A stretch of 29,188 nucleotides of DNA from a virus. Position 1 is the first letter of the stretch. The number at the start of each line of letters is the position of its first letter. Of the stretch, positions 4,498-17,017 are shown piece by piece. The stretch covers positions 1 through 29,188 of IMG/VR virus record IMGVR_UViG_3300030117_000199. The stretch is one strand, 5' to 3'. The position numbers were made by a program, and so were the translations under genes. Under the pieces are notes generated by a model. It worked only from the letters and a program-made list of their open reading frames with translations, searched no databases and was not told the origin of the DNA.

Positions 4498-4835
4498 ACC
4501 CACAAAAAAACAAAGGTGATAGGGCAGAAAGAGAAGCCTGTATATATTTAACAGCAGCAACAGGACATATTGTAGAAAGACGTTTTGGTGCAGGTCAGGA
4601 TAAAGATAAAGGAGACCTTGTTGGTATTCCTGATACTGTTGTACAGGTGTGCGACTATAAAAACAAAAGTGAAGCAGTATTAAAAAAGCCTAGAGAAGCA
4701 GAACAACAAAGAATCAACGCTAATGCTAAACACGCTATTACTATGGTCAGGTTTAATAAAAGACCTGGTTGTGCAGAAGGGGATAATTGGCGTGTTGTTA
4801 TGACTATTGAGCAATTTGCAAAATTAATAAAATGA
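4494..4835 (+). CDS. Holliday-junction-resolvase-like PD-(D/E)XK nuclease
   Basis: A 113-residue protein with the minimal restriction-endonuclease-like fold used by Hjc-type and phage resolvases: KGDRAEREACIYL with an acidic residue in helix 1 (Glu12 or Glu14), RRFGAGQDKDKGDLVGIPD with Asp41, then VQVCDYKN giving Asp54-x-Lys56. The stretch around residues 64-80 (KKPREAEQQRINANAKHAIT) matches the second helix of such enzymes. It would resolve branched replication or recombination DNA before packaging. VRR-Nuc-type or other nicking endonucleases of this fold are the alternative. It overlaps both neighbours by four bases. Confidence 0.7.
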   Translation: MNPQKNKGDRAEREACIYLTAATGHIVERRFGAGQDKDKGDLVGIPDTVVQVCDYKNKSEAVLKKPREAEQQRINANAKHAITMVRFNKRPGCAEGDNWRVVMTIEQFAKLIK

Positions 4836-5578
4836 TTGCACATCAGAAGTTAATAAAAGATCAGATGGAAAAAGAAGATGCACATAACCTTTTTGGTAGG
4901 TGGTGGGAAAATGTAGATACAGATATAAAAAAAGCAGTTGTACAAGAAATAGACGTAAGAACAGCTACTAATTTAATAAAAAGATATGAATGGCTACAAT
5001 GTATGCCCGCTATGGTTCAGTATTGTTATGGCATATATTTTGAAGGTAATTTAGGTGGTGCGGTTGTATATAGCACAGAATATAGTGAAAACTTAGGACA
5101 TTGGGATAAATTTGATTATACAGGAAAAATTATTTTACTTAGTAGAGGTGCTTGTGTTCATTGGTCACACCCACATAGTGCTAGTAAGTTAATAACACAA
5201 AGTATGAAAATGTTACCTAGTAAATATAAAGTAGTAACTGCAACTGTTGATGAACTAGCAGGTGAAATAGGTACTATCTACCAAGCCTGTAATTTTACAT
5301 ACATAGGGTCTATGAGAGAAAACAACCCTAAAGTTAATGATAGAGATAATGACAGGTTTGGTGTAGAAATAAAAGGTAAATTGTATGGTGCAAGATCAAT
5401 AAGACAAAAACTAGGTACGCAAAAAAAAGAAGAAATACTAAAAATGTTTCCTGATGCAAAATTTATACCGCAAAAAAGTAAGCGTAGATATTTTTATTTT
5501 TTAGGAAATAAAACAGAAAAGAAATATTATAAATCTAAAATACAAGAATATATAAAAGAATATCCTAAAAGAAGTTGA
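4832..5578 (+). CDS. Mom-like DNA-modification enzyme (GNAT-type fold)
   Basis: A 248-residue protein resembling the Mom family, known from phage Mu to convert adenine to a methylcarbamoyl derivative that blocks host restriction. Conserved-looking stretches: EGNLGGAVVY (71-80), SRGACVHWSHPHSASKL (104-120), GEIGTIYQACNFTYIG (144-159), and DRFGVEIKGKLYGARSIRQ (174-192). The GNAT-like acyltransferase layout and the 'iYqAcNf.YiG' signature are the main evidence. The C-terminal 50 residues are lysine-rich and may contact DNA. Its ATG overlaps the resolvase stop; its stop overlaps the -35 box of the next promoter. Mu mom depends on the regulator Com; no Com-like zinc-finger gene is seen next to it. 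A plain acetyltransferase is the alternative. Confidence 0.62.
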   Translation: MIAHQKLIKDQMEKEDAHNLFGRWWENVDTDIKKAVVQEIDVRTATNLIKRYEWLQCMPAMVQYCYGIYFEGNLGGAVVYSTEYSENLGHWDKFDYTGKIILLSRGACVHWSHPHSASKLITQSMKMLPSKYKVVTATVDELAGEIGTIYQACNFTYIGSMRENNPKVNDRDNDRFGVEIKGKLYGARSIRQKLGTQKKEEILKMFPDAKFIPQKSKRRYFYFLGNKTEKKYYKSKIQEYIKEYPKRS

Positions 5579-5603
5579 CAGGGGTATACCCTTGATATAT
5601 ATT
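5575..5603 (+). promoter_or_regulatory. Strong promoter with palindromic operator upstream of the 139-aa gene
   Basis: TTGACA (5575-5580), exactly 17 bases, TATATT (5598-5603): the best sigma-70 match in the window. The spacer begins with the palindrome GGGTATACCC (5582-5591), one base after the -35 box. The -35 box overlaps the stop codon of the Mom-like gene. A leader of about 26 bases follows, containing GAGAGG eight bases before the ATG at 5636. Confidence 0.78.
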
Positions 5604-5635: not shown

Positions 5636-6055
5636 ATGACTCAAGCATTACCTGAGACACACCCAAATTTAGACAGAATTATTAATGGTACAGAATGGTG
5701 TACAGAAAAAAAACAAGTAGTACAAACTCAATTTACTTTTACAGATTTAGAAAAACAAGTAATGAATCTTTTTTCTATTAATTGTTATGTTAAAGGTTTG
5801 TACAGCGATACTGACCCTGCATTTACATTACTAGATTGGGAAGATGTACAACCACTTAAAGAATTACTAGGTTTAACTACTAATCAACTTAAAGGTATTG
5901 TAGGTTCACTTGCAAAAAAATCTGCTATAGAAATAGAAGTAAGAGGTGATACACCTGCTGAAAAGGCTATTTGGGGTCAAGATTTATACTGGATTTCAAA
6001 AGAATGTTTTGATTCAATAGCTGATGAAAAAGAGGAGGAAACAAAAAATGTCTAA
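5636..6055 (+). CDS. Hypothetical protein, possible winged-helix regulator
   Basis: A 139-residue acidic protein with its own strong, operator-bearing promoter and a good ribosome site (GAGAGG). Residues about 40-52 (FTDLEKQVMNLFS) and 82-105 (LKELLGLTTNQLKGIVGSL, then AKKSAIEIE) have the helix-turn-helix-wing rhythm of a winged-helix DNA-binding domain, but no family is recognised with confidence. The C-terminal tail DEKEEETKNV is disordered and acidic. A gene with a dedicated promoter carrying the same palindrome found before two other early operons is a natural candidate for an autoregulated phage regulator; this is inference. It overlaps the following 43-codon gene by 8 bases. Confidence 0.6.
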   Translation: MTQALPETHPNLDRIINGTEWCTEKKQVVQTQFTFTDLEKQVMNLFSINCYVKGLYSDTDPAFTLLDWEDVQPLKELLGLTTNQLKGIVGSLAKKSAIEIEVRGDTPAEKAIWGQDLYWISKECFDSIADEKEEETKNV

Positions 6056-6179
6056 TTTTTTAATGATACTTTCAGCTACAGGGTTGTTTTATACAGCCCT
6101 ATCATCAACTCTATATGACATGACAGTTACAGATTGTAATGCAGGTATAGAACTAGCTTGTAAGGAGGTAAATAAATAA
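6048..6179 (+). CDS. Small membrane or secreted peptide
   Basis: A 43-codon gene, ATG at 6048 to TAA at 6179, with the strongest ribosome site of the region (GAGGAGG at 6032-6038). The product begins MSNFLMILSATGLFYTALSS, a hydrophobic helix, followed by a polar tail with two cysteines (TDCNAG and LACKEVNK), so it could be a one-pass membrane peptide or a cleaved secreted peptide. It overlaps the upstream gene by 8 bases. The candidate structured RNA starts two bases after the stop, so both are probably on one transcript from the promoter at 5575. No family is recognised. Confidence 0.6.
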   Translation: MSNFLMILSATGLFYTALSSTLYDMTVTDCNAGIELACKEVNK

Positions 6180-6180
6180 A

Positions 6181-6297
6181 TATAGTCGGGAAGCCTGATA
6201 GTTGGGTTGCAAGATTTCCTAACTTGAAAGTTATACAACACCTACTCATCTAGGAAAAACAGGGCAAGTATTGGACTTGATCTATCTCCCGACTATA
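6181..6297 (+). ncRNA. Candidate structured RNA closed by an 11-bp stem, with possible pseudoknot
   Basis: The outer arms TATAGTCGGGA (6181-6191) and TCCCGACTATA (6287-6297) are perfectly complementary. Inside, GATAG (6197-6201) pairs with CTATC (6282-6286). Further possible helices are TAACT/AGTTA closing a TGAA loop (6220-6233), CAAGT/ACTTG (6265-6279), and GTTG/CAAC (6206-6209 with 6236-6239). TTTCCTA (6215-6221) can also pair with TAGGAAA (6251-6257), which would cross the GTTG helix as a pseudoknot. It contains no gene and lies between a small gene and a terminator, so it is either a free RNA or a 3' UTR element. It does not match tRNA, tmRNA or a riboswitch I can recognise. Confidence 0.5.
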
Positions 6298-6376: not shown

Positions 6377-6400
6377 AGCCCCTTAACAGGGGCTTTTAAT
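6377..6400 (+). terminator. Intrinsic terminator of the rightward early transcript
   Basis: AGCCCC (6377-6382), loop TTAACA, GGGGCT (6389-6394), then TTTTAAT. A six-pair GC-rich stem followed by a T tract is a standard intrinsic terminator on the plus strand. It also closely follows the stop of the minus-strand gene ending at 6404, but there is no T tract in that direction. Confidence 0.75.
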
Positions 6401-6403
6401 TGT

Positions 6404-6568
6404 CTAATTTAATTTAGGAAATAGTTTTTGCTCTAACAAATCAACAGCCCTGTCATCTAATGTGTTTGTAGTTTGTTTACAAATAGCTCTTAATAAATCA
6501 ATAATTAACCTTTTGCATCCTGTAGTAGAAAGAAAGCGTAATAGTATAGGCTTTAGAATTTTGTACAT
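6404..6568 (-). CDS. Small hypothetical phage protein
   Basis: A 54-codon gene on the minus strand, ATG at 6568 to TAG at 6404. The product begins MYKILKPILLRFLSTTGCKR and continues LIIDLLRAICKQTTNTLDDR, a mostly amphipathic helical protein. The 'T.NT.DD..V......L' end resembles small conserved proteins of aquatic phages that I know only as hypotheticals. A fair promoter (ATGACC, 17 bases, TACAAT, near 6590-6618 on the minus strand) lies upstream, or it is read from the promoter at 6919-6948 after the 76-codon gene. No Shine-Dalgarno sequence is seen. It fills what would otherwise be a gene-free stretch. Confidence 0.5.
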   Translation of the reverse strand: MYKILKPILLRFLSTTGCKRLIIDLLRAICKQTTNTLDDRAVDLLEQKLFPKLN

Positions 6569-6918: not shown

Positions 6919-6948
6919 ATTATAGATTAAAAACCTATGACAGAGCAA
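6919..6948 (-). promoter_or_regulatory. Promoter for the small minus-strand membrane gene
   Basis: On the minus strand TTGCTC (6948-6943), 18 bases, TATAAT (6924-6919). It lies in the start of the divergent plus-strand gene and would begin a transcript near 6912, just ahead of the GTG at 6894. A matching plus-strand promoter in the same 42-base gap is not clear. Confidence 0.55.
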
Positions 6949-7320
6949 AAATCTAAAAATCCTCTACAGAAAATTAAAGAAAAATTTGAAGATAAAGAAG
7001 AACAGCTAGAGATACTTGGAACGTTTATAAGGTTAGGTGTAATGGTCTGGGCTGGTTTTATTATTAGCCTTAATTACATAACAATTCCAGGCATAACAGA
7101 AGATAGAGAAGTTAAAGATATAACATTCATAGCTTCAGTATTTACAGGCTGTTTAGCAACTTTTAATATCACACCAGGCGGTAAAAAAAAGAAAGATGAA
7201 AAGATAGAAGAGGGTAAAGGTGTTGCAAACTCTAGCGAAAACGTGCAAACTATAAGAATAATACAAGAACCAATAAAAATTATTGGTGTAACAGAAATAG
7301 ATCCTAAAACAAAAGCATGA
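6937..7320 (+). CDS. Two-helix membrane protein, holin candidate
   Basis: A 127-residue protein with a charged N-terminus, a membrane helix at about 29-50 (TFIRLGVMVWAGFIISLNYI), a second at about 62-80 (ITFIASVFTGCLATFNI), and a lysine/glutamate-rich tail. Two helices with charged ends fit a holin or another phage inner-membrane protein. The ATG lacks a ribosome site (AAAAACCT precedes it), so the leader is very short or the gene is coupled in some other way. Its stop overlaps the ATG of the next, secreted, protein by four bases. No endolysin is found beside it, which weakens the holin call. Confidence 0.5.
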   Translation: MTEQKSKNPLQKIKEKFEDKEEQLEILGTFIRLGVMVWAGFIISLNYITIPGITEDREVKDITFIASVFTGCLATFNITPGGKKKKDEKIEEGKGVANSSENVQTIRIIQEPIKIIGVTEIDPKTKA

Positions 7321-7838
7321 AAAAATTAATCCCATTATTACTTCTGACTTTTAGCCCTGCGGCATACGCTGATATAACACAAAAGTTCACAACATCTGCA
7401 CAGATTTCGGTAGATATGCCTTACTCTGTTACCAATAAACTTGGTACGACTTATTCAATAACAGGTACAAACATCACTCCAAGCGTGACATCAGGAGGTT
7501 CTACAACATCTAATGCCATAGGTGGTTTAAATGTAGGCAGCTTGACCGCAGGTGTACCTGCCATGATTCAAACTGATAAAGCCGTAACAACAGCAGGGTC
7601 AAGTTTTGCTCTTACTGAATCGGTGACTATGGGAGATGCGACACCATCAGCAGTTACTCCATCATCAGGCATAGCAGCACTACCACACTTAGGAGGTCAG
7701 ACAACAATAGGTAGTGGAGGTACTCTTGGATCTGGAGCTATGACCTCTTTATCATCAGGTGTTCATACTTGTAGCGGTGCATTTGGATCAGGTTCTAGTT
7801 GCATTGGATCTACTACTGTACAAATAACAATTGATTAA
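7317..7838 (+). CDS. Secreted beta-rich protein, paralogue of the next gene
   Basis: A 173-residue protein with a clear signal peptide (MKKLIPLLLLTFSPAAYA, cut before Asp19) and a mature part very rich in Ser, Thr and Gly with no charged core, as in extracellular beta-structured proteins. Two stretches match the following protein: YSITGTNITPSVTSG with LSVSGTNIESADVNG, and SFALTESVTMGD with PFSLVESVMGSG. Two cysteines near the C-terminus (HTCSGAFGSGSSC) could form a disulfide. The ATG overlaps the preceding stop (ATGA). Signal peptides are unusual for phage virion proteins, so a periplasmic or outer-surface role during infection is likely; the exact role is unknown. Confidence 0.6.
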   Translation: MKKLIPLLLLTFSPAAYADITQKFTTSAQISVDMPYSVTNKLGTTYSITGTNITPSVTSGGSTTSNAIGGLNVGSLTAGVPAMIQTDKAVTTAGSSFALTESVTMGDATPSAVTPSSGIAALPHLGGQTTIGSGGTLGSGAMTSLSSGVHTCSGAFGSGSSCIGSTTVQITID

Positions 7839-8268
7839 ATTTTGGCTGCTATTAATAATATTATTTCCTGTCAAAACCTTTGCAAATCCAGTAGTTCCTA
7901 CCTTCCGAACAGGAAGTTCCTCGACAAACAGCACTTCTCAATCAGTAATAACCGAGAGCATAACCAGTTATCAATATCGGACAGGGTACACTTTAAGTGT
8001 TTCAGGCACAAATATAGAGAGTGCAGATGTTAATGGATATATTAATTCAATACCTACCGCAGAAGCTACACAGACAACTAGTGGCATTAACTTCTCATAT
8101 ACAAGTCCTACGTTGGAAGGTGTGCCTAGATGGAAAATAGTAAATTCTGGACAGCCATTTTCTCTCGTAGAGTCAGTCATGGGAAGTGGTTTAGACACTA
8201 TAACGAAAATAGATCGGGTTATAAATACCACAACAACAACCACAGTAGAAACTACCTTTGGTCAGTAA
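7831..8268 (+). CDS. Secreted beta-rich protein with TTG start
   Basis: A 145-residue protein with signal peptide MIKFWLLLIILFPVKTFA, cut before Asn19. The mature part is Ser/Thr/Asn-rich and shares the SGTNI and 'pFsLvESV' stretches with the protein just upstream, so the pair looks like a tandem duplication. No ATG lies in frame before the signal peptide; TTG at 7831 is the likely start and overlaps the end of the upstream gene by 8 bases, implying coupled translation. The function is unknown. Confidence 0.55.
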   Translation: MIKFWLLLIILFPVKTFANPVVPTFRTGSSSTNSTSQSVITESITSYQYRTGYTLSVSGTNIESADVNGYINSIPTAEATQTTSGINFSYTSPTLEGVPRWKIVNSGQPFSLVESVMGSGLDTITKIDRVINTTTTTTVETTFGQ

Positions 8269-8849
8269 TTCTTGTAATCCTTTGCCCTGTAAGGGTTTTG
8301 GCTAATACAACTGTAGCTTCTCCAAGCAGCCAAGCACAAGGAACAGTTAATAATAATGCAACTCAAATAATGCCGAATAGTAGTCCTCAATTTAGAATGT
8401 CGCAAGGTATTGTTTGTAGTTCTCCTAGCCTTACAATTACTCCTTATGTAACCGATTCTCATACATTTAATTTACCAAGACAAACAGTAACCAAACAAAA
8501 TATTTACGATGAAGATACTGGTGCTATAAAGTACGTCCAAGAAACCCCTAGATTTGAAAAAGATAATTTTAATATTAGTTATGGAATTTCTGCACAACTA
8601 AACATTCCATTAGGAACATCTCCAAAACTTTGTCATAAAGCAACTGAGATTAATATTAAAAATCAAGAGTTGTTATATAAGAAAACTTCGCTTGAGCTTG
8701 CACTTTTTAGACTTAAGGTTTGCTCAGAGCAAGCGAATCTTGGTGTTACATTTACAGGTAAGTACGCTTCAATATGTGAGGGCATAAAAGTTTCAGTTCC
8801 ACCTAATCAGGTGATTCCTCACACTCATTCTTTGACTTCCGAGAAGTAA
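8130..8849 (+). CDS. Secreted protein with unclear start, overlapping the upstream gene
   Basis: The convincing part begins near 8256 with a signal-like helix (LWSVILVILCPVRVLAN) that resembles the signal peptide of the upstream protein (FWLLLIILFPVKTFAN). The mature part has YGISAQLNIPLGTSPKLC, a helix rich in Lys/Glu (KNQELLYKKTSLELALFRLK), and paired cysteines (LKVCSEQ, ASICEGI), a layout I associate with secreted proteins of aquatic phages. The only in-frame NTG start before the helix is ATG at 8130, inside the upstream gene and giving a 43-residue leader of shadow-like composition. An ATT at 8268 overlapping the upstream stop (TAATT) or a frameshift are alternatives. The end overlaps the convergent gene by 47 bases. 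Confidence 0.5.
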   Translation: MENSKFWTAIFSRRVSHGKWFRHYNENRSGYKYHNNNHSRNYLWSVILVILCPVRVLANTTVASPSSQAQGTVNNNATQIMPNSSPQFRMSQGIVCSSPSLTITPYVTDSHTFNLPRQTVTKQNIYDEDTGAIKYVQETPRFEKDNFNISYGISAQLNIPLGTSPKLCHKATEINIKNQELLYKKTSLELALFRLKVCSEQANLGVTFTGKYASICEGIKVSVPPNQVIPHTHSLTSEK

Positions 8850-9447
8850 GTTTCTTTATTAAATTCTTTACTATAGGTTTTACTAAATTTAAAATAATAG
8901 GAGTAGTCGCAGCCACAGTAGCAATAGCAGCAGTAGAGACAACAGTACTAAATTCTGGGAGGTACTGATCTTTGAACGGAACGTCCTCATACAGCGTTGT
9001 GCATATAGTTCCATCTTCGCTTCTTTTATGATCTATAACACGTTCTAGCTTCTTTTCGTTACGAAAATCTCCAACCCTCTGATCTGATTTTCCAGGACAC
9101 TCTACAAATACATCTTCTTTTTTCTTGTTCTCTGGGATCTTAGCTTTAGGTGGTTTCCCTTCTGGCAAAGGCTTTTGTTCCTGTTCTACTGGTGCAGCTT
9201 CCTCAACAATAATTAATTGATCTGGTTGATAATTAAGAGGATAAAAACTTGGATAAGGGCAGTTACTACTTACTCCGTTTGGATCTTCTATTAATAGATT
9301 TCTATTACCTGTATTCTTGGTGTCTCTGTGATAGTAAGTACAACCTATAATCTCTACATTTGAATGTTCATAATTAGGTAAATATGTATAAGGTATATGA
9401 ATCTCAGGTATATGAATCTCTGGAATACTTATCTCAGGTATTTCCAA
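8803..9447 (-). CDS. IPEI-repeat, proline-rich protein with C-terminal membrane helix
   Basis: A 214-residue protein starting at TTG (9447), directly after the stop of the preceding gene; there is no internal methionine. The N-terminus is an approximate pentapeptide repeat (IPEIS, IPEIH, IPEIH, IPYTY). A conserved-looking stretch follows (GCTYYHRDTKNTGNRNLLIE), then a Pro/Glu/Lys-rich linker (EEAAPVEQEQKPLPEGKPP), then near the C-terminus a hydrophobic helix (TVVSTAAIATVAATTPIILN) with a basic tail (KNLIKKLTSRKSK). The layout suggests an envelope-attached protein. From memory the YHRD...NTGN part resembles proteins of marine cyanobacterial siphoviruses. The gene converges on the plus-strand secreted-protein gene and overlaps its last 47 bases. 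Confidence 0.6.
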   Translation of the reverse strand: MEIPEISIPEIHIPEIHIPYTYLPNYEHSNVEIIGCTYYHRDTKNTGNRNLLIEDPNGVSSNCPYPSFYPLNYQPDQLIIVEEAAPVEQEQKPLPEGKPPKAKIPENKKKEDVFVECPGKSDQRVGDFRNEKKLERVIDHKRSEDGTICTTLYEDVPFKDQYLPEFSTVVSTAAIATVAATTPIILNLVKPIVKNLIKKLTSRKSKNECEESPD

Positions 9448-12070: not shown

Positions 12071-15000
12071 CTAACTACCACGCCCAAATCCTGTTGCAGT
12101 ATAACTAAATGTTTTATCCTGTACAGCATTTCCAGCATTAAGAAACTTAATATTGAAACCAGTGCCAGAAATACTTGTAATTTCAAATCTGTCTGTACCA
12201 CCAAGATCATTTGCTGTAATACCAATACTTGGCAACTGTGTACCTGCCCCAACACTTGTTCCAGCCTGCCCTGTAAAGAATGTCTGATCGAATGTAATAT
12301 CAAGTCCTGATGCTGATGTACCAGAAGAAATATTAGACCTTTGTTCTGTTCTCCTATCAAGTTCTGCTGTATAACCTAGCTGATCTATTTCTATTGATTG
12401 TGCTGGATCATCAGAATCCATTTCACATCTGAATTTAAAACCACGCCCAACATAAGTACCATTTACAAAAGGATTAAATCTAGAAAAGTTTGCTCCATAA
12501 GTACAAGAAGTTCCACTTGAAATTGTTGCACTTGTAGCTGAAGTTACTGTAAAAGTGCTTGTGCTTGGAACTGTAACTATTTCATAATTTCCATCTGTGG
12601 CACTACCAGCAGTAAAGTCAATGACTACAAAATCACCAACGGAATATCCATGCGAACTCTTTGTAATTGTAATAGTTGTCCCACTTTGCCCATAAGTTGC
12701 TGAAGTAGACAAGTCAGGGTCAAGATCAGTTGTTGCAACTAATAAAGAAGCTCCAACATCAAAAGCAGTCGCACCATCGAAATCAGACCATGTATCAATA
12801 TTTGCTGTTCTTTTATCAATCAGATCATTTGGATAAAAACCTTGCGTTACAAAATGTCTGCGTAATCTCAAAGGCTGCTTGCCACCTAAATCCAAAGTAT
12901 TTGCAAATTCATATGAACCGCCAGTAATATCAACAGCACCAAGAAAATCAAAATCTGCAATAGCATCAAAATCTGTAACGCCATCTAATAAATCAAGAGA
13001 ACCAAGAACTAGACCATTTACATCATCTGAAAAGAAACAATCAACTTTTGTACCAGCAAAAGGGGTTGCATCAGTATCTTCTCTATCAACTAGAACAGAA
13101 AGTTTTGGCAAAGGGTCAGGGCTGTTTACAACTACTGAAGCCTCGCCAGAACTAAGTCTGCCTCCATCATCACGGAATTTTAAAATATATTCTCCTGTAA
13201 CAATATTAGGAACAATTGATTCGCTCACATTGCCTGGTAAAGCTGGAATTACATCAACTGCATTAGTAAAAGTACCAGTTCCATCACTTATATTTGTTGC
13301 CCTTACTACCACGTTCCCACCATGAACTACATCAATATCGGTTGCCTTATCGAATCTTAATCTTACAAATTGATCTGAAATTGGTTCAATTCTTAAATTG
13401 GTAACATCTTGTGGTACTGCTGTCTTACCAACAGCTTCAAAAGTAATATCAGTAGAGGTTGCAGATAACTGTTCAAGAACATTATATGAAAAGACTTGTA
13501 TTGTATAAGTTCCTAATCTGCTATTCATTATTTCAAAATCTGGTCTTGTTACTCTTTCAGTTATGACGTTATCATTACCAAATCTGTAGTTAATTTGATA
13601 TTGAGTTACACCGACAACAGTTTGCCAGCTAACAACAATTTTTGATACGGCCTGATTATTTATTGGAAATATTTTTTCAACAGCACTTAAACCAGCAGGT
13701 GGTTTTGCAAGTTCTCCTAATTCAGAAACTATTCTTGCTGGTAATTGCTCGCCATCTTCAATATATGCATATTTACCTTCTACATAGGATAAAGCTGTAA
13801 TTGCATAATTTATACCATCTTGTTCTTCTACTGTAATTACTCTGAATAATTGAGATTTAAGAGTGACATTCGATATAAGAAAATTTGCATTTACATTAGG
13901 TGTTTGAGAAAAAGCAGAACTTACAGTAACAGTCCCACCTGATACAGATGATATTGCCTTACTTTCAAAAGATCCATCAGGTAAAATTACAGCTAATGTT
14001 GCATCACCTACAGGATTACCACTGGCATCTACCGCTAAATCAGTTGCAGATGTATCATCAACAGTAACAACAGTTGTAGAAGCTACAGCAGATAATCTTC
14101 CACCTCTTCTTACACCTGCTCTTACTGGATCTTGTATTTCAATAATTGCACCTGGTCTAACAACCGCACCAGAATCAATAGATGTTGAAAATACAACTAT
14201 TTCCGATTCATTTTGTTCAGCAAATAATATTGCCTTACCTAACCTTTTGGCTTGACCTCTAGATGTACAGGCAAATGCTTTTACTTTTTTTACTACAGTA
14301 CCAATTTTTGATATTGCAGTTGCATCTTCTACCACTTCAAAATCAACTTCCTGACTATCCATGTTGAAGTAAGAAACAGATACAACACTGTGTCTTGTTT
14401 TTAAACTACTACCAGAATATGAAAAACCTTCTGAAGTTACATTCGATAGTGTAAATAAATAACTAGGATCAGTGGGTTTATCCTGAGTGATACTTATTGA
14501 ACCAGCAGACCATATCGGCATACATCTCATAACACCTGCTAATTCGTTTATTAAATTAAATGCTTCTACTGGACTTTGAATATTTACATTGCAACTAAAC
14601 CTTGCTTCCTGGCCACCTAAACCATCATCAACAAGAGTATTTGCATATTTACTGGCCGTTACAAAAGAAAATAAATCTAATGAACTATCTGTAATATGAT
14701 CTCCAAACCCATATCTTGAGGTCGTGAGCAAGTCCAGTAACACCATTGCAGGGCATGAACACCAAACGGCAGCACCCATGACTCCATTAAATATATAGCC
14801 ATCGGGATAAACTATTCTGCCTGTTTGTAAATCAACTGTTGGTGTACCCGATCCACTAGCACCAGCACCAGGTATTCTTATCTTTATTCCACGAATACGG
14901 AATTTTCTAGAAGGTGGGGCGTTAAATTGAACAGAATCTAAACGTAAAGAGCTATATGCACTATTTGGATATGTATTAGCTTCATCAATTATTTCACTAA

Positions 15001-16326: not shown

Positions 16327-17017
16327 AACGATACCTCCCTCCTGTGCATTTTAATAACCAAGGATTATATGGCTCTCTACAAGATAGTCTATCTGCTGAA
16401 TGATGTAAAACATCACCATCTATAAAAATTCCAACATGATTTAAACCTTTACCTAAAATACTCATCGCCAAAACATCGCCATTCATTAAAGGCTCATCTG
16501 GTTTTAATAATTTAAAACCTCTACTTGGTAAATACCTCTCAAAAACTGGATCGTCTGTAAAATCTTCTATTCTTGTTGGTCTTTCATAATCTAATAATTC
16601 TATACCTCTTTGTTCTTTATACCAATCAACTATCAATGACCAACAATCTGTGACAGCCCAAACCCAAGGTCTACCAAGTAAAGGTGCTTTATATCCACAT
16701 GGCTCATAATATCCCCATGTTTCAGTTTTAGGATTAACAATATACCAAGGCAGTTTAGTATGTTCGCAACTCATTTTATCTGCCTGACTAGCAACAGGTG
16801 GTGTGTCAGGATGACTATGAATAATGGCTGTTATAGTTCCTAAGTTACTGCCCTTTATATAATCTTCTGGATCTAAAATAAAATATTCATCTGATTGTGC
16901 CGATAAGTTACGGCAAGGATGATACCTTTCTTTCCCTCTAATATTTAACAATAAACCACAAGATTCATTAGGATCTTGGTCTTTCGCATGAACAAGAGCA
17001 GCTTCTTTCCAATTCAT
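16316..17017 (-). CDS. K: Tail tip peptidase, lambda gpK-like (JAMM plus NlpC/P60)
   Basis: A 233-residue two-domain protein. The first 110 residues are a JAMM/Mov34 metalloprotease: Glu18 in ESCG, His67 and His69 in HSHPD, Ser77 and Asp80 in SQAD give the full zinc set. The second half is an NlpC/P60 cell-wall peptidase: Cys125 in TDCWSL, His194 in LNHVGIF, with HHSAD (205-209) nearby. The peptidase probably opens peptidoglycan during tail entry; the JAMM part may process tail components. Since no stand-alone endolysin is seen, this is the only clear wall-cutting domain in the window. It overlaps L by four bases and I by 11. Confidence 0.9.
   Translation of the reverse strand: MNWKEAALVHAKDQDPNESCGLLLNIRGKERYHPCRNLSAQSDEYFILDPEDYIKGSNLGTITAIIHSHPDTPPVASQADKMSCEHTKLPWYIVNPKTETWGYYEPCGYKAPLLGRPWVWAVTDCWSLIVDWYKEQRGIELLDYERPTRIEDFTDDPVFERYLPSRGFKLLKPDEPLMNGDVLAMSILGKGLNHVGIFIDGDVLHHSADRLSCREPYNPWLLKCTGGRYRYDA

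Follow-up and report, generated by a model that had tools for sequence, protein, structure and literature searches.

The window, the whole stretch of 29,188 nucleotides analysed here (IMG/VR record IMGVR_UViG_3300030117_000199), derives from a lambda-like siphophage with genes for tail fibre J, terminase, tape measure, Erf and an exonuclease, and its terminase is nearest, among cultured phages, to those of S-CBS3 and S-CBS1. The early operon ends with a small plus-strand ORF (MSNFLMIL...CKEVNK, 6049..6179). A GC-rich terminator-like hairpin, read from the sequence as AGCCCC...GGGGCT plus a T run, lies on the same strand at 6377..6397, followed by the convergent small gene phrog_2738 (6404..6568, minus strand). 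A first-pass annotation had placed a possible new structured phage RNA in the 117 bases at 6181-6297, directly after a small gene and before a terminator, and this placement agreed with the ORF stop at 6179 and the hairpin at 6377-6397. Further upstream, a Mom-like DNA modification gene (phrog_1384, E=2e-22) occupies 4832-5578, and a sigma-70-like promoter (TTGACA-17-TATATT, 5575-5603) carries the palindrome AGGGGTATACCCT within its spacer. The GGGGTATACCC block of this palindrome recurs 3' of the RNA in many related contigs, which suggests a putative phage operator.

The edges of the 117 bases, TATAGTCGGGA (6181-6191) and TCCCGACTATA (6287-6297), are perfect reverse complements over 11 bp, adjoined by a 5-bp helix (CAAGT 6265-6269/ACTTG 6275-6279), and two further hairpins lie inside. 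The predicted fold of the 117 nt had an energy of -34.2 kcal/mol (z = -3.3), which none of 200 shuffles equalled. The 109-nt core by itself gave a z of only -1.7; folding energy is therefore weak evidence, and it is covariation that puts the RNA beyond chance. On the sense strand no listed ORF of ≥40 aa covers the element, as expected for a region described as gene-free, and two short minus-strand ORFs (6089-6241 and 6127-6249) extend part-way into it. ARAGORN detected neither a tRNA nor a tmRNA in the element, as the annotation had also judged. Its failure to recognise a riboswitch or ribozyme core was matched by Rfam 15 (4227 families), in which the window had no match at the gathering threshold and the element none even at E<=10; nine divergent loci likewise hit no family at the gathering threshold. 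With two covariance models, the window element scored 114.7 bits (R1) and 103.3 bits (R2).

The conserved unit, delimited P1 to P1 at 6185..6293 (109 nt, plus strand) on the basis of the covariance-model scores, covariation and G.U bias, consists of P1 (7 bp), P2 (CCU/RGG), P3, P4a, an internal loop, P4b and P5, arranged around two three-way junctions, P1/P2/P5 and P2/P3/P4; all segments below are on the plus strand. P1 (6185..6191 with 6287..6293) is paired in 99.9% of cells. The inner seven pairs of the originally noted 11-bp closing stem are conserved, whereas the outer four A-T pairs (6181-6184/6294-6297), which extend P1 outward, are peculiar to the window phage. P2 joins CCU (6194..6196) to 6262..6264; it is near-invariant, with U-G/U-A as the only variation, and is compatible with the alignment, unproven by covariation. 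The J2/3 nucleotides GAU (6197..6199) and the J3/4 nucleotides UGAAA (6225..6229) are each invariant in 100% of 100 sequences. P3 (6200..6205 with 6219..6224) shows double changes at all six pairs and begins AG/CU, GA/UC or GC/GC, and the middle pair of P4a (6230..6232 with 6258..6260) changes from U-A to C-G in 43 sequences. The conserved internal loop AUACAANA (6233..6240) stands opposite RAA (6255-6257) and leads into P4b (CCUA 6241..6244 with UAGG 6251..6254), with double changes at all four pairs. P5 (CAAG 6265..6268 with CUUG 6276..6279) has the strongest covariation in the family, occurring as CAAG/CUUG, CAGA/UCUG, CAUG/CAUG and CACG/CGUG, and is followed by the conserved, single-stranded J5/1 (AUCNAUC, 6280..6286). 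The 5-bp helix and hairpins seen initially were confirmed, hairpins P3, P4 and P5 being kept across the family, with loops that vary in length and sequence. Large extra structured insertions of ~30-50 nt occur in the P4 hairpin of three clade-3 loci (L284, L290 and L327), and one copy (L085:6002-6101) retains P1-P4 and is without most of P5 and the J5/1 strand, a possible natural truncation judging from its sequence.

Compensatory change in homologues, the check that the annotation had named for its own proposal, was evaluated in three alignments. In MAFFT alignments, which were not fitted to the model, 98.7% of cells paired among 33 clade-1 sequences (60 double changes vs. 12 after shuffling) and 96.8% among 39 sequences from all clades (211 vs. 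65). For 97 distinct sequences aligned by the covariance model, 97.4% of cells paired, with 525 double-change cells vs. 173±11 in shuffled alignments (0/500), and slid controls all fell far below the real alignment. Moreover, the 15 top column pairs by APC-corrected mutual information were all modelled pairs. The proposal of a new structured phage RNA was thereby borne out decisively. G.U and U.G pairs outnumbered A.C and C.A by 97:13 (42:8 excluding two wobble-rich pairs); since G.U is kept and A.C is rare, the RNA corresponds to the gene-sense strand. P1 and P2 hardly vary, and P1 draws its support from changes at pairs 2 and 7, from GCCGGGG/CCCCGGC in one locus (L414) and from GUGGG/CCCAC in another (L047). 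Among the matches listed, 82 of 87 clade-3 copies read GUCGGG, and P1 had not been used in their selection, indicating that the P1 sequence matters beyond pairing.

One component of the original description was not upheld. TTTCCTA (6215-6221) and TAGGAAA (6251-6257) are complementary in the window copy and had been read as a 7-bp pseudoknot, but across 33 homologues 69.5% of cells paired vs. 69.4% after shuffling, with no excess covariation. As a family feature the pseudoknot was rejected: 6215-6221 belongs to the loop of P3, which varies, and the partner of UAGG 6251-6254 is CCUA 6241-6244 (P4b). Judged from the alignment, the pairing is a chance complementarity of the window copy.

Homologues were collected from IMG/VR by pattern scans. 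An exact pattern comprising 19 bases of the element's 5' end matched 23 stretches, and core patterns without P1 matched many more; a pattern allowing G or T at P1 position 7 revealed two further clades among the matches listed, and a clade-3 pattern without P1 was also run, its figures likewise referring to the matches listed. The pattern TGAAAGTTATN{5,35}GACAAGG gave mostly chance matches in coding sequence. These scans yielded at least 214 distinct elements in at least 234 distinct contexts. Among cultured Prochlorococcus MED4 siphophages, covariance models detected the RNA in MED4-117 (55-75 bits) and P-HS2 (13799-13914, plus strand), and blastn detected it in MED4-184, which was counted with P-HS2 as one copy. 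Every element-bearing contig or genome examined has a single strong copy. No copy was present in KBS-S-2A, S-H1, S-CBS1-4, P-SCSP2, PSS2, P-SSP7, P-SSM2 or six other T4-like cyanophages; the RNA is lacking from six related cultured siphophages and from the T4-like cyanophages scanned. Genomes of 84,980 prokaryote species, scanned with the clade-1 pattern alone, gave two matches only, both chance. On these comparisons, the region encodes a genuine structured RNA that belongs to a large family of RNAs of ~100-130 nt from marine picocyanobacterial siphophages.

In nearly every context the RNA follows the stop codon of a gene on its own strand, and among the matches listed this upstream gene belongs to 51 unrelated sequence families. 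The spacing from stop codon to P1 is usually 0-8 nt, with 5 nt in the window. Among the matches listed, spacings of 4-8 nt were found in 81 of 92 clade-3 contexts (21 gene families) and 57 of 84 clade-1 contexts (28 gene families), compared with 114 of 1691 ordinary ORF gaps at the same loci, although spacers of related phages are partly inherited and the counts are not independent. Clade 2 has a spacing of 0 nt or a one-base stop overlap and essentially one upstream gene family; its convergent gene often starts 0 nt past P1, so that the RNA fills the entire convergent gap. In the AC clade, the spacing is 54-57 nt. An intrinsic terminator follows the RNA in 21 of 78 clade-1 and 0 of 80 clade-2/3 contexts among the matches listed; in the window, the terminator-like hairpin lies 84 nt past the RNA.

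The downstream side is conserved in the clade of the window, with the convergent small gene (phrog_2738 in the window) lying near +216 and a DUF6450 gene near +752 (87 loci). Directly 5' of the RNA is an accessory-gene slot; in clade 1, its extra gene sits between a conserved 43-aa ORF and the RNA. MED4-117 (NC_020857) has the RNA (16349-16464, minus strand) in another genomic place than the window clade, between CPWG_00029 and rusA, where P1 (16349-16364) shares 16 bases with the 3' end of the rusA-like gene on the opposite strand (final codons and stop). Within the window group, the RNA was present at 27 of 28 loci with enough upstream sequence. A natural empty site was found in L498, between 1100 and 300 nt ahead of its DUF6450 gene. 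There the last early gene runs directly up to the convergent gene and the RNA is missing, which indicates that the RNA is common but dispensable. In three loci (L348:4699-4815, L363 and L366), an identical 12-nt sequence (TATTATTATTTT) directly adjoins each end of the RNA, and another locus (L308) has a flush 7-nt repeat.

A module comprising DUF6450, phrog_564 (secreted, Gly/Ser/Thr-rich), DUF6322, phrog_848 and phrog_570 (window 6937-9447) was present in 13-15 of 15 element-bearing genomes, which span two capsid/tail lineages, and in 0 of 6 element-free siphophages. The module is also found in T4-like cyanophages, which lack the RNA, and in another phage group with the RNA in 0 of 20. Because the module occurs without the RNA, we do not claim a functional link, and the co-occurrence may reflect only host or lineage.

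Taken together, the comparisons established a conserved fold on the sense strand, present in one copy at the operon end, independent of the upstream gene and dispensable. From this, we infer that the RNA is transcribed as the tail of the operon's mRNA and acts there. The reading we favour, tentatively and with less than even confidence, is that the RNA is a compact 3'-UTR element that protects or processes the 3' end of the upstream mRNA. P1 would fold at the front of the ribosome as it terminates, and the core formed by the junctions would turn the RNA into a fixed 3' boundary against 3'-to-5' decay and, at convergent genes that meet with no terminator between them, against read-through decay; a host or phage factor might be bound, and a stable small RNA might be left behind. 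As the upstream gene swaps among 51 families while the RNA stays, the RNA would serve the transcript end rather than one gene. Ribosome footprints place the closest helix that can stay folded during termination at about the observed distance from stop codon to P1, and such precise spacing would suit a 3'-boundary element. Furthermore, the conservation of the junctions suggests that a particular tertiary fold or a partner is involved. Against decay protection, a stable hairpin would suffice for that purpose, leaving the conservation of GAU, UGAAA, AUACAANA, AUCNAUC and P1 unexplained. In addition, the spacing is not universal, being 0 nt in clade 2 and 54-57 nt in the AC clade, and the RNA is missing from L498 and from six related cultured phages.

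The independence of the RNA from its neighbour gene would also fit a small RNA that acts in trans during infection by binding a protein or RNA of host or phage, having been processed from the 3' part of the early mRNA or transcribed from a promoter of its own. The single copy per genome, the differing location in MED4-117 and the deeply conserved core agree with such a role, which we consider possible but rather doubtful: the P3, P4 and P5 loops are all variable, so that no conserved exposed pairing seed is offered, and the tight distance from the stop codon would be needless. A broader form of the 3'-UTR reading, in which a general module, folding behind the terminating ribosome, caps or releases the end of any accessory gene that lies last in an operon, through a new ribozyme or by protein recruitment, would amount to a new functional class of phage RNA and appears unlikely. 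Self-cleavage by a ribozyme of a new class, freeing the mRNA 3' end, seems still less probable. The size, junction-centred conservation and intergenic phage setting do resemble those of small ribozymes, and a three-way junction bearing CUGAU...UGAAA is reminiscent of the hammerhead, which is present in phage intergenic regions (PMC3088659), but the RNA is not a hammerhead and no Rfam ribozyme matches it. There is little to favour a 3'-UTR regulator that tunes the upstream gene by sensing a ligand or protein: two three-way junctions and conserved internal-loop nucleotides resemble an aptamer, and sensing elements have been proposed in 3'-UTRs before, e.g. the L17 downstream element (PMC2864571), but the 51 unrelated upstream families and often convergent downstream genes present no consistent target. 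Least credible is a DNA-level recombination or insertion site marking the accessory-gene slot, with incidental folding, as the sharp GTCGGG...CCCGAC edges, gene swaps directly upstream, loop mosaicism, the L498 empty site and the 12-nt repeats of the L348 group are countered by the 97 vs. 13 G.U bias marking one RNA strand, by flanking repeats that are not enriched overall and by one copy per genome with no linked recombinase seen.

Several other candidates were rejected. A mobile element with target-site duplications was discarded, the 12-nt flush repeat being found in the L348 group only, without general enrichment. By inspection, a riboswitch-like exchange between P3 and the AAGUUAUA strand is contradicted by the invariance of AAGUUAUA when P3 becomes GUAAG/CUUAC. 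Stop-codon readthrough or frameshifting was rejected because the lengths of the elements, among the matches listed, are spread over all three phases (95/74/65), and the RNA itself is not an intrinsic terminator, with P1 strands ~95 nt apart and no T run after. For the hammerhead, the equivalents of G8/A9 (columns 16-17: AG, GA, GC, AC, CU), which its CUGANGA motif leaves unpaired between stems I and II, pair with columns 67-68 by covariation. Where an A15.1-U16.1 pair and the cleavage nucleotide H17 would be expected, all 100 sequences have A at the U16.1 position (column 152, directly behind the 3' strand of P4), then R (153); a loose hammerhead DNA pattern matches everywhere and has no discrimination.

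Set against Rfam and the open-access literature, the RNA class appears new in sequence and fold, which does not imply a new activity. The open-access literature contained no cyanophage RNA motif like this one; some published motifs have no Rfam number, e.g. Ocean-VI (PMC2864571), and motifs never in Rfam lie outside the comparison. Many sampled siphophages of Prochlorococcus, and probably of Synechococcus, the ocean's most abundant photosynthesisers, carry this one strictly conserved, apparently uncatalogued RNA. Its constancy behind a slot of ever-changing genes suggests that a step in phage mRNA handling or host takeover has gone unrecognised, and the cultured carriers P-HS2 and MED4-117 make it directly testable in the laboratory.

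Among known systems, manA, wcaG and PhotoRC-II (RF01745, RF01761) are likewise structured RNA motifs of marine metagenomes and cyanophages (PMC2864571); they are 5'-UTR elements or tied to metabolic or photosynthesis genes in T4-like cyanophages, whereas the present RNA, which does not match them, lies 3' of unrelated siphophage genes. The L17 downstream element (RF01708) is also a structured RNA directly 3' of a coding sequence, often with no following gene (PMC2864571), but it is bound to rplQ in Lactobacillales/Listeria and differs in sequence and fold. The hammerhead likewise has a three-way junction in which CUGAU precedes a hairpin and (U)GAAA follows it, and likewise occurs between phage genes, and clade-2 copies read CUGAUGA...GAAA; here, however, an extra P1/P5 junction surrounds the core, and cmscan returned no match. 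In position, the RNA resembles sib of phage lambda, an early-operon 3'-UTR element that determines what becomes of the mRNA upstream of it. The sib element is a simple hairpin next to int that RNase III processes, whereas the new RNA has six helical segments and is attached to no fixed gene.
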